Below are positions 1 to 32,075 of a stretch of 32,075 bases of DNA, one piece after another; position 1 is the first letter of the stretch; each line of letters opens with the position of its first letter. The DNA is from a virus. The translations under genes were made by a program, and so were the position numbers. The notes under the pieces were generated by a model, which did not search any database, had not been told where the DNA came from, and was given only the letters and a program-made list of their open reading frames with translations. The stretch is from the IMG/VR virus record IMGVR_UViG_3300044981_000035, positions 1-32,075 of that record; one strand, written 5' to 3'.

Positions 1-414
1 TTCGGCAACGCTCAGGTGTACGGCAAAGCTCTGGTGTCCGGCGACGCTCGGGTGTTCGGCAACGCTCAGGTGTACGGCAAAGCTCGGGTGTCCGGCGACG
101 CTCGGGTGTTCGGCAACGCTCAGGTGTACGGCGACGCTCTGGTGTCCGGCAACGCTCAGGTGTACGGCGACGCTCTGGTGTACGGCGACGCTCGGGTGTT
201 CGGCAACGCTCAGGTGTACGGCAAAGCTCTGGTGTACGGCGACGCTCAGGTGTACGGCAAAGCTCTGGTGTACGGCGACGCTTGGGTGTCCGGCAACGCT
301 TGGGTGTCCGGAGACGCTTGGGTGTACGGCGACGCTTGGGTGTTCGGCAACGCTCAGGTGTCCGGCGACGCTCGGGTGTTCGGCAACGCTCGGGTGTTCG
401 GCAACGCTCGGGTT
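1..414 (+). repeat. 18-bp tandem repeat array, 23 units
   Basis: Twenty-three contiguous 18-bp units of the form T(T/A/C)C GGC (AAC/GAC/AAA) GCT (CAG/CTG/CGG/TGG) GTG. Within the array only one silent change (GGA for GGC in unit 18) and the terminal GTT depart from the fixed positions. All other variation is amino-acid changing and confined to the first, third and fifth codons. The array runs off the left edge of the window. Confidence 0.95.
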
Positions 415-441
415 GACAGACAGCGAGACCCCATGGGATAA
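1..441 (+). CDS. Hexapeptide-repeat (left-handed beta-helix-like) protein, 3' part
   Basis: The frame is open from base 1 and stops with TAA at 439-441, so the 5' end is outside the window. Almost the whole product is 23 copies of a six-residue unit x-G-(N/D/K)-A-x-V, followed by a nine-residue tail. The V and A spacing matches the bacterial hexapeptide rule ([LIV]-x3-[STAV]-x) that folds as a left-handed parallel beta-helix with V and A inward. I infer a rigid prism-like fibre or surface protein; no enzyme domain is visible. Position 1 is only F, Y or S, position 3 N, D or K, and position 5 Q, R, L or W. The ATPase gene starts 4 bases after the stop. A similar partial gene faces it from the other end of the window. 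Repeat reality is certain; function is unknown. Confidence 0.75.
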   Translation, partial: FGNAQVYGKALVSGDARVFGNAQVYGKARVSGDARVFGNAQVYGDALVSGNAQVYGDALVYGDARVFGNAQVYGKALVYGDAQVYGKALVYGDAWVSGNAWVSGDAWVYGDAWVFGNAQVSGDARVFGNARVFGNARVDRQRDPMG

Positions 442-442
442 A
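413..442 (+). promoter_or_regulatory. Candidate sigma70-type promoter at the array end
   Basis: A perfect TTGACA lies at 413-418 and an extended -10-like TGGGATAAA at 434-442, with an 18-base spacer; TAAAAT at 439-444 is an alternative -10. The predicted start point near 449-451 falls just past the ATG at 446. If the promoter is real, translation would have to begin downstream, for example at the ATG at 488, or the promoter serves only part of the transcripts. Chance resemblance is possible. Confidence 0.3.
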
Positions 443-445
443 ATA

Positions 446-1609
446 ATGACATTCAAAAAGGCAGTTAAGGTAGACGCAAAGCTACGGATGGCCGTTAGCG
501 GCCCAGCCGGTAGCGGCAAGACATTCACGCTCCTCCGATTAGCGACCGAGCTCGCCTGTGGCGGACGCATCGCCTACGTGGATACCGAGCATGGCAGCGC
601 TAGTAAGTACGCTCACACGCCGACATGCGCCCCTGGATGTGCGGACCCAACACACTTCAGCTTCGACGTGATCGAGCCAGCCACGTTCGACCCACGCGAC
701 CTGATCGAGGCCATGGATGCCGCCATCAAAGGCGGGTACGCGGTTTTCTGTGTAGATTCGCTATCGCATTACTGGGTGGGGCCGAACGGCGAGCTGGAAC
801 TAGTCGATAATGCGGCCCGCCAGATGCGCAACCCGAACAGCTTCGCCGCATGGAAGACGATCACCCCGATACATAACCAGCTGGTTGACAAGATGCTCTC
901 CGCTTCTGTCCACGTTCTGGTGGCAATGCGCACCAAAACGGAATGGGTCATAGATCGCGACGAAAAGACCGGTAAGACCACTCCGCGCAAGATCGGTTTA
1001 CAGCCTGTTATGCGCGACGGCATTGAGTACGAATTTGACGTTTGCGGCGACCTGGATCAGGATAACACGCTAGTTGTGACCAAATCTCGCTGCCCAGAAC
1101 TGTCTGGAAAGTCCATAAATCGTCCCGGGCGAGACGTCGCCGAAAAACTCAAAGCGTGGCTAGGCAGCGGACCTGCCGATCGCGTACCGAGCGCAGTAAA
1201 TGTCCAGGAAAATACCAATAAGCCTACTTACGGACACGGGCAAATAAAGTCGGTAGCCAGCTCTGAAAATGCGCCACCGACACCAGCAGATGGAAAATTA
1301 CCAGAAGAAATGAAGCCGCTGATCGAAGGTTTGACAAAGCCGGGCGGAACCCGCGCTGCGCTACAAACGATGCGTGACAAACTATTCATGCTTCCTGATG
1401 GAGACGTGCTGTATCGACGCATCCTTCAAGACAACGGTATCGTGCCCGGCCATGGAAGCGCTAAGGAGTCTGTAAAGAAGGCTCTTATGACAATGTGGGC
1501 CACCATCGCTATCCCGCCACCGGCCAGTACCTACCAGGCCACTGACGAAGATGTTCCTGACATATTTAACACGGCCGCCACCGAAGAGGAGCCCCTCGAT
1601 GCAGCCTAA
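446..1609 (+). CDS. P-loop ATPase, AAA_24/RecA-like, phage recombination type
   Basis: A 387-residue product. The Walker A motif GPAGSGKT is at residues 19-26, a VDTEHGSA segment typical of RecA-like folds near 45-52, and a Walker B-like VFCVDS near 100-105. A small insertion with two cysteines (TCAPGCADP) lies around 60-68. The family is common in phages beside Gp157, where members are thought to act with single-strand annealing or recombination proteins (Sak4-like); that role is inferred. ATG 446 is chosen because it is 4 bases after the hexapeptide stop, which would allow coupling. TTG 413 would extend it into the array. The 3' end overlaps the Gp157 gene by 11 bases. Confidence 0.8.
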   Translation: MTFKKAVKVDAKLRMAVSGPAGSGKTFTLLRLATELACGGRIAYVDTEHGSASKYAHTPTCAPGCADPTHFSFDVIEPATFDPRDLIEAMDAAIKGGYAVFCVDSLSHYWVGPNGELELVDNAARQMRNPNSFAAWKTITPIHNQLVDKMLSASVHVLVAMRTKTEWVIDRDEKTGKTTPRKIGLQPVMRDGIEYEFDVCGDLDQDNTLVVTKSRCPELSGKSINRPGRDVAEKLKAWLGSGPADRVPSAVNVQENTNKPTYGHGQIKSVASSENAPPTPADGKLPEEMKPLIEGLTKPGGTRAALQTMRDKLFMLPDGDVLYRRILQDNGIVPGHGSAKESVKKALMTMWATIAIPPPASTYQATDEDVPDIFNTAATEEEPLDAA

Positions 1610-22382: not shown

Positions 22383-23243
22383 TCAACGAAGCGTAAGTTC
22401 CCAGCGTCCATCTGGCTCCAGAATTACGCGCCCCATCATCGTGTCCGTTGCTGCCATGCCCATAACTTCCGCATAGGTACCGTAGTGGTCCAAGAAGCTA
22501 CTCGACATGACGCCGGCGAACTTTTCAAGATGTATGCGCCTATTCTTTCGACGCTCGCGCCAGTCGAATAGCACAAGAACATCATGTAGGTGCCCCACCC
22601 AGTAAACCTGTGAATCGCCTTGAGCCATGAATCTGTGGAGCATCTGAGCTTTAGCTCCCTTTGTGCGGCTACCTGTGCCGCCATGCCACAGACTATTTTT
22701 GAATGGCTTGTGCTCGCCGTAGTGAATGTCCACAAATTGCTTACCGGCGCTATAAGGAACTCGCAAAAGAGTAGCTATAAGGCGACCCAGGTCACCAAAC
22801 GTCTTAACAGACCTGCGCTCATGGTTGCCTCCAACGTAACCGATAATTCTGTGCCTTAGCGGTAGCGCCAGCTCTATAAACTTGAAGACCTGACCTTGCG
22901 GCTCCTCGGTGTTTTCGTACGGGCTGGCCACGCTGATAGCAGTGGCGGCGTCCACCATGTCGCCAAGAAAGAACACGAAGCGGTTCGGTATTGACAGAAT
23001 CCAATCACGGAACTCCAGGAACCGTGGCACGTTACAAGAAAGGTGCCCAAACTGCACATCCGTCAGCGCGATCAGCTCGATTGTCTTGTACTGCTTGGGA
23101 CTGAACTCCACGTTGAGGTACTTGAGCTGATGGTCATGTTTCATGCCACCATGGATCTTGACTACATCCTTGGGGGCCGAGGCGTGGATCTTTTCTAGAT
23201 ACGCGGCCGTCGAGCTAACTTCCTCTTGGTTTTTATGGGACAT
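22383..23243 (-). CDS. Calcineurin-like metallophosphoesterase
   Basis: A 286-residue protein with the metallophosphoesterase motifs in order: TDVQFGH (residues 61-67), GDMVD (94-98), GGNHE (138-142), WHGG (186-189) and GHLHD (217-221), which bind a two-metal centre. The first motif has Gln64 where many family members have His (D-x-H). Substrate is unknown; phage members include phosphatases and DNA nucleases. ATG 23243 overlaps the upstream TAA. It is the last accessory gene before the portal, after the GroES and dNTP-metabolism genes. Confidence 0.75.
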   Translation of the reverse strand: MSHKNQEEVSSTAAYLEKIHASAPKDVVKIHGGMKHDHQLKYLNVEFSPKQYKTIELIALTDVQFGHLSCNVPRFLEFRDWILSIPNRFVFFLGDMVDAATAISVASPYENTEEPQGQVFKFIELALPLRHRIIGYVGGNHERRSVKTFGDLGRLIATLLRVPYSAGKQFVDIHYGEHKPFKNSLWHGGTGSRTKGAKAQMLHRFMAQGDSQVYWVGHLHDVLVLFDWRERRKNRRIHLEKFAGVMSSSFLDHYGTYAEVMGMAATDTMMGRVILEPDGRWELTLR

Positions 23244-23527
23244 TAAATCATTCGCTCCTGAATGCGCTTTAGTCTCCGATTTGAAAGCTTCTTAAATTTT
23301 TCCTGCTCCCGGCCGCCGCTATTTCGGTAGCGCGCGTCTCTCGCTTTACCTTTTGAGCTAGCGTCATAGCGCGATTGTGCCGCTTTTCCTTCTGGGCTCT
23401 GGTTATAGCGCAATTTTCGCGCTTTTCCTTTTGGGCTCTGGTTATAGCGCAATTTTCGCGCTTTTCCTTTTGGGCTCTGGTTATATCTCTTATGACTAGC
23501 CCGAATCTTTGCAATATCTAATCCCAT
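23243..23527 (-). CDS. Small basic protein with 13-residue tandem repeats
   Basis: A 94-residue, strongly basic protein built around repeats of the form RYNQSPKGKARKL (about four units, the last ones diverged), with a Lys/Arg-rich C-terminus (KLSNRRLKRIQERMI). Repeats of this kind occur in several phage proteins, often near HNH or HTH domains, and may bind nucleic acid; that is inference. ATG 23527 is chosen; an in-frame GTG at 23590 would make it cross the upstream hairpin. No clear ribosome binding site is seen. Confidence 0.6.
   Translation of the reverse strand: MGLDIAKIRASHKRYNQSPKGKARKLRYNQSPKGKARKLRYNQSPEGKAAQSRYDASSKGKARDARYRNSGGREQEKFKKLSNRRLKRIQERMI
23401..23478 (-). repeat. Two identical 39-bp tandem repeats
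   Basis: 23401-23439 and 23440-23478 are identical, and a diverged third copy precedes them at about 23362-23400. They encode the 13-residue repeat units of the small basic protein. Perfect identity suggests recent slippage or duplication. Confidence 0.9.
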
Positions 23528-23535
23528 TGTTTGGG

Positions 23536-23592
23536 ACGTGGCCAGCTGTCCGACTGAGCCTAAAAGGAGGAAACGGCTCCAGCTGGCCACGT
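23536..23592 (-). other. Hairpin with an anti-Shine-Dalgarno loop
   Basis: ACGTGGCCAGCTG (23536-23548) pairs with CAGCTGGCCACGT (23580-23592), 13 bp. An inner stem GAGCC/GGCTC (23556-23560 and 23575-23579) encloses a 14-base loop at 23561-23574. On the minus strand the loop reads GTTTCCTCCTTTTA, complementary to the AAAGGAG-type ribosome sites used by this phage; on the plus strand it displays AAAAGGAGGAAA. It lies nine bases upstream of ATG 23527. A regulatory or small RNA role is inferred. Confidence 0.6.
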
Positions 23593-31685: not shown

Positions 31686-32075
31686 TCAGGAAACATCATT
31701 CATCAGAGCTTTGCCGTACACCAGAGCGTCGCCGTACAACCGAGCGTCGCCGGACACCTGAGCGTTGCCGGACACCTGAGCGTTGCCGGACACCTGAGCG
31801 TCTCCGAACACCTGAGCGTTGCCGAACACCCGAGCGTTGCCGGACAACCGAGCGTCTCCGAACACCCGGGCGTTGCCGGACACCCGAGCGTTGCCGGACA
31901 CCCGAGCGTTGCCGGACACCCGAGCGTCTCCGAACACCAGAGCGTTGCCGTACACCCAAGCGTTGCCGGACAACCGAGCGTCGCCGTACACCAGAGCCTT
32001 GCCGGACACCCGAGCGTCGCGGAACACCTGAGCGTTGCCGGACACCCAAGCGTCGCCGTACACCCGAGCGTCTCC
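31686..32075 (-). CDS. Hexapeptide-repeat protein, 3' part
   Basis: Open to the right edge, so the 5' end is outside the window. It contains 20 complete x-G-(N/D/K)-A-x-(V/L) units plus a partial one, then a short end (MNDVS). The repeat is the same as in the gene at 1-441, but with a little more decay: one Gly-to-Arg change, several GTG-to-TTG changes and GGA or AAG codons. It points leftward into the late operon. Inferred fold is left-handed beta-helix; function unknown. Confidence 0.75.
   Translation of the reverse strand, partial: GDARVYGDAWVSGNAQVFRDARVSGKALVYGDARLSGNAWVYGNALVFGDARVSGNARVSGNARVSGNARVFGDARLSGNARVFGNAQVFGDAQVSGNAQVSGNAQVSGDARLYGDALVYGKALMNDVS
31701..32075 (-). repeat. 18-bp tandem repeat array, inverted copy
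   Basis: About 20.8 units of the 18-bp repeat also present at 1-414, in opposite orientation. Variation again concentrates in the first, third and fifth codons. The array runs off the right edge. Confidence 0.95.

Follow-up and report, generated by a model that had tools for sequence, protein, structure and literature searches.

Homogeneous silent sites and diverse, presumably outward-facing residues in the hexapeptide arrays of a phage and its relatives

The window, that is, the whole 32,075-base stretch of virus DNA analysed here, begins inside an array of near-identical 18-bp units whose silent bases are practically fixed and whose protein-changing bases are diverse, and the same contrast recurs in related arrays of many other phages. 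Taken as a whole, the likely explanation is that the array would form a YdcK-type beta-solenoid rod, in which the glycine, alanine and valine of each six-residue unit would supply the turn and the core and residues 1, 3 and 5 would face outward by the hexapeptide rule. Copying between units, seen in relatives as short patches with breakpoints inside units and supplemented there by block duplication and deletion, would keep rewriting the array and homogenise all of its neutral sites. Such homogenisation would account both for the missing silent differences and for each array having silent codons of its own, while selection favouring diversity or change at the surface would keep the outward residues polymorphic, within a small conserved alphabet.

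The two arrays of the window

Bases 1-414, plus strand: left hexapeptide array, 23 units of 18 bp, following the scheme TNC GGC RAC GCT NNG GTG, with AAA at codon 3 in four units.
Bases 1-441, plus strand: C-terminal part of the array protein, a predicted YdcK-type beta-solenoid (PF18836, 118.7 bits), with the N-terminus missing and the contig edge open.
Bases 415-441, plus strand: non-repeat tail VDRQRDPMG and stop, without the C-terminal domain that many relatives have.
Bases 31701-32075, minus strand: right hexapeptide array, made up of a truncated unit of 15 bases and 20 full units, with the codon vocabulary of the left array.
Bases 31686-32075, minus strand: second array protein, C-terminal part only (PF18836, 105.9 bits), with the tail ALMNDVS and a stop, the contig edge being open.

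The left array lies in a frame that is open at the left contig edge and stops at 439-441. Its 23 tandem units and their codons had been described in the initial annotation correctly to the base. Codon 1 is TAC in 10 units, TTC in 7 and TCC in 6; codon 2 is GGC in 22 and GGA in one; codon 3 is GAC in 10, AAC in 9 and AAA in 4; codon 4 is GCT in all 23; codon 5 is CAG or CGG in 7 units each, CTG in 5 and TGG in 4; and codon 6 is GTG in 22, the last unit having GTT. Counted base by base along the unit, minority letters number 0,13,0 / 0,0,1 / 10,0,4 / 0,0,0 / 4,12,0 / 0,0,1, and the concentration of variation at codons 1, 3 and 5 that had been noticed there is borne out both by these counts and by the 137 arrays described below. 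The array's fixed glycine, alanine and valine codons make up 36%, 22% and 29%, respectively, of the codons for those residues in the rest of the window. For these residues, codon usage in the window predicts a diversity of 0.72-0.74, whereas within the array it is 0.08, 0.00 and 0.08, respectively. This silent homogeneity is far beyond chance and agrees with the original remark that silent change is nearly absent and protein-changing differences are abundant. An AAA_24 ATPase gene and a Gp157-like gene stand downstream of the array, and relatives of the ATPase gene carry no array. The array is also open in all three forward frames (window 2-1609 and 3-416), and frame 2 (2-1609) runs stop-free through it into the ATPase gene.

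The right array, at the opposite end of the contig, had been overlooked. The rare GGA at codon 2 is always followed by GAC in the window arrays, and this linked GGA-GAC variant occurs in the right array as well. Both arrays are read toward the interior of the contig, each from its own edge and on opposite strands, and the record terminates within an array on both sides; probably the assembly broke there, so that both proteins have their N-termini in missing sequence. A search for exchange between the left and right arrays found no long shared blocks above shuffled expectation. Elsewhere in the window, a 39-bp unit is repeated in tandem 3.7 times with 88% matches (23342-23485), inside a small minus-strand frame at 23243-23590.

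Family assignment and predicted structure

Both window arrays score far above the curated PF18836 cut-off of 30 bits, and the sole PDB sequence match of the window array is Salmonella YdcK (2F9C, 2PIG). The NCBIfam equivalog model for YdcK, NF040481, gives 50.9 bits against a cut-off of 350 for a window protein that is truncated at its N-terminus. By Pfam, then, the window arrays belong to the PF18836 YdcK repeat family, without being YdcK equivalogs. Bactofilin (PF04519, cut-off 27.9 bits) reaches 26.9 bits in the left array and 34.7 in the right one, in both cases far behind PF18836, and the Hexapep Pfam model, which would point to a hexapeptide acyltransferase of the LpxA/GlmU kind, was not reported for either.

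Full-length relatives match the YdcK model near its N-terminus too, and they have an N-terminal cap and a C-terminal domain, whereas in both window proteins only a short tail follows the array. The cap resembles LGGWI or LGGYI; in its strict form the motif precedes 88 of 198 arrays, and variants of it are visible in many others. In a full-length relative the array is modelled poorly (pLDDT about 30-35) and the C-terminal domain confidently; the significant PDB hits of that relative are to YdcK only, with no clear PDB relative for the C-terminal domain itself.

Single-sequence prediction of the window array gave a regular solenoid with strands at Ala-x-Val and a pLDDT of 90; the left-handedness that had been anticipated for a beta-helix is not reliably given by the model, which may be a mirror image and whose best PDB alignments combine a structural Z of up to 17 with an rmsd of about 12 A. 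AlphaFold 2 is reported to over-predict solenoids (PMC11795689), and such models can be over-confident. Given this tendency and the large rmsd at high Z, neither handedness nor exposure was taken from the model, and the outward orientation of residues 1, 3 and 5 is instead suggested by the hexapeptide solenoid rule.

Codon pattern across the family

An initial search with a DNA pattern returned only arrays with GGC, GCT and GTG, but the pattern itself had fixed those codons, and it was replaced by protein-based searches. The protein search of viruses gave 558 matched stretches in one scan, from which 80 loci were kept, and a further 78 loci were bacterial or archaeal; Escherichia coli genomes held no match to the array.

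Over 137 arrays, base 2 of codon 1, base 1 of codon 3 and bases 1-2 of codon 5 have a mean diversity of 0.44-0.47 and are polymorphic in 95-99% of the arrays, while the silent third bases have a diversity of 0.07-0.10, against about 0.70 predicted from codon usage, and are invariant in 67-75%. When compared with flanking codon usage, 121 of 121 arrays were less diverse at silent sites, 68 of them being fully fixed. The silent codons are fixed within an array and differ among arrays (GGC, GGT, GGA or GGG; GCT, GCG, GCC or GCA; and so on), and arrays on the same contig have them in common (L099, L100 and L125). The last of these, a 152-kb viral contig, holds at least 7 arrays within 6.6 kb, nearly all with identical silent codons. 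Edwardsiella and Xanthomonas arrays are less homogeneous, with silent differences present. The outward alphabet is conserved over the same 137 arrays, namely Y/S/F/C at residue 1, D/N at residue 3, and R/Q/W with some L, E and K at residue 5; serine at position 1 is nearly always encoded by TCN and not by AGY.

Comparison of sister phages

Closely related phages differ in their arrays. In Vibrio phages 1.139.A and 1.139.B the flank is identical over 3.1 kb and the array genes differ by a 201-bp gap; in Vibrio phages 1.034.O and 1.034.X the flanks are identical and the arrays differ; and in the Edwardsiella KF-1 group and the Streptococcus phages Sfi19, SFi18 and CHPC919 the flanks are 99.7-100% identical and the arrays altered. 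In the Streptococcus trio array length is constant, and whole-gene codon differences comprise 8-12 protein-changing against 0-2 silent ones. The sister phages L031, L039 and L041 have 13, 16 and 28 units between identical N- and C-terminal parts, L041 differing from L039 by a block duplication, and altered arrays are also found in the sister pairs L014/L024 and L032/L037. Over eight altered IMG/VR pairs, the codon differences are 93 protein-changing and 1 silent. Arrays are identical in the sister contigs L112/L114, L068/L129, L099/L102 and L019/L025, and since several sister pairs keep identical arrays, turnover is not fast everywhere.

Some of these sister differences depend on short-read assemblies. 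Scans with the flank junctions of both arrays of the present virus matched no other contig, and that its own arrays vary is presumed from its relatives. In-frame stops or a shifted frame occur in the arrays of Vibrio phages 1.139.B (L057:2303-3106) and 1.209.O (L228:2857-3632), so that some copies are broken or mis-assembled. CRISPR spacers are annotated within the array gene in five Vibrio phage records (L056, L057, L058, L059 and L228); apparently the hexapeptide repeats were mistaken for them.

Copying between units and alternative explanations

The Sfi19 array can be rebuilt from that of SFi18 by 5 exact copies, against 14.4 for a shuffled unit order. Variable codons are linked by 0.14 bits at a spacing of 6 bp; the linkage declines to about 0 by 36-54 bp and does not jump where one unit meets the next. 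Four-unit words are repeated 95 times where 7.7 are expected. Associations between pairs of variable codons are array-specific (heterogeneity p from 7e-4 to 5e-20), with common odds ratios mostly near 1, and therefore record history and not coupling in the protein. The mosaic, the linkage decay with the repeated words, and the array-specific associations point to copying rather than point mutation. Linkage that decays with distance in bases, ignores unit boundaries and is particular to each array is best explained by short-patch copying between units. Sister comparison and linkage decay thus show in relatives the unit shuffling that the initial annotation had offered as one possible diversifier.

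In a toy simulation, built by hand with arbitrary parameters, copying alone fixed the outward sites along with the silent ones, and a silent diversity of 0.000 with a variable-site diversity of 0.59 and 0.15 bits at 6 bp was obtained only with selected diversity and short tracts, which roughly reproduces the real arrays in short-range linkage and silent fixation. Because copying alone would fix the three outward residues like the silent sites, we infer selection for diversity at these residues from the diversity patterns. Selection merely against perfect DNA repeats was rejected, as it would have preserved silent differences, which are absent.

A history of recent neutral amplification would dispense with such selection: slippage, which is to be expected in repeat arrays, would have multiplied a few unit variants, the residue variation would be that of the founders, and there would have been no time for silent change. 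Block duplications of the kind this requires do exist, both between L041 and L039 and in the repeated four-unit words. However, nearly all of the 137 arrays, from phages of very different kinds and GC contents, vary at the same four bases and keep the same silent positions fixed, and chance founders would not produce one pattern so widely. Moreover, neighbouring units do not resemble each other more than random pairs do (lag 1 z -0.2), which disfavours local slippage as the main process, neutral copying fixes the outward sites in simulation, and the present sample already points to outward diversity persisting in old arrays, all of which makes this history unlikely, if not negligibly so. The residues might instead be set by their place in the solenoid, on its faces or at its caps, the variation being a matter of architecture. 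The family-wide residue alphabets would agree with this, as would a slight lag-3 signal at residue 1 (z 4.3), which would fit three units per coil and is echoed in the left array, which begins F-Y-S three times; but unit order is otherwise close to random, the pair associations vary by array as described above, and sister phages freely change residues 1, 3 and 5, leaving an architectural origin quite improbable.

Targeted mutagenesis at codons 1, 3 and 5, by a diversity-generating retroelement or another base-specific mutator, had been raised in the initial annotation on the ground of an adenine template. Changes from TAC to TTC, TCC or TGC and from CAG to CTG or CGG would fit changes at adenine, and the near absence of silent change would fit as well. 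Against this, the proposed search for a reverse transcriptase found none in the 32-kb contig, itself possibly incomplete, and none in 30 records with arrays, including some whose arrays are altered; the middle adenine of codon 3 is constant in 23 of 23 left-array units; codon 3 varies almost only between A and G, and codon 5 also between C and T; neither TGG nor the A/C difference at the third base of AAA is accounted for; and independent mutation would give neither the linkage decay nor the mosaic copying. Of the explanations weighed here it appears the least probable. Nearly as improbable is an assembly artefact, in which short-read assembly would have scrambled or collapsed the arrays and the sister differences would be unreal. 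The contig ends within arrays on both sides and the in-frame stops inside the Vibrio 1.139.B array speak for it, but Sfi19 and SFi18 still differ, and the age of their GenBank records presumably implies Sanger sequencing; identical arrays can also come from different metagenomes, and the codon patterns within arrays are independent of any comparison between assemblies.

Possible function

In its simplest reading, the array gene would encode an accessory protein of the phage, its surface under constant pressure to match, or to escape, a partner that itself changes, and the pattern suggests a putative, rapidly changing binding surface. More tentatively, and as a possibility that we hold to be less likely than not to be right in full, the array may carry a modular recognition code on a beta-solenoid, in which each six-residue rung presents three outward residues drawn from about 3 x 2 x 3 combinations and short-patch copying rewrites the rung order to keep pace with the partner, for example a nucleic acid, a polysaccharide or a defence protein of the host. 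PRDM9 or TAL-effector arrays would, if this is true, have a prokaryotic counterpart in it.

In cultured phages the array gene has small genes of the early or accessory kind for neighbours: Streptococcus phages carry it between a cro-like gene and a helicase, Xanthomonas phages between the gene for RNA polymerase and those for lysis. A role as a tail fibre was considered and is disfavoured, the gene not being consistently within the virion gene block. None of the defence-system models matched. A literature search, with most subscription journals outside its reach, returned nothing relevant on hypervariable phage hexapeptide arrays.

The signature of diversity-preserving selection, together with internal copying, would imply an unrecognised arms-race or recognition role for PF18836-type arrays, which have so far been annotated mostly as hypothetical, acyltransferase-like or cytoskeletal. 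Sfi19 and SFi18, which infect the dairy bacterium Streptococcus thermophilus, are small cultivable phages in which the partner could be sought and the rate of copying measured.

Comparison with known systems

The repeat family is common to YdcK (PF18836; 2F9C, 2PIG) and the window arrays, but the phage repeats are shuffled and near-identical in DNA, and their alignment to YdcK is confined to weak, diverged stretches. As in diversity-generating retroelements, variation is confined to chosen codons of a phage protein; unlike in those systems, no reverse transcriptase was found with the arrays examined and the variation lacks an adenine-specific pattern. TAL effector repeats are near-identical tandem units with variation concentrated in the recognition residues. 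The phage units resemble them in being near-identical and in varying at few residues, whereas the TAL fold is helical and unrelated, has 2 variable residues per 34, and serves an established recognition of DNA. In PRDM9 the zinc-finger array is a coding minisatellite that undergoes concerted evolution by duplication, deletion and gene conversion, and the diversity among its units is mostly protein-changing and located at codons -1, 3 and 6 (PMC3890296). The phage arrays likewise have homogenised silent sites and three diverse codons per unit, for which a contact role may be proposed by analogy, but the fold is unrelated, the units have 6 residues and not 28, the setting is a phage and not a vertebrate, and the ligand is putative. 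The window array would, by this analogy, work like the PRDM9 array without being a member of its class.
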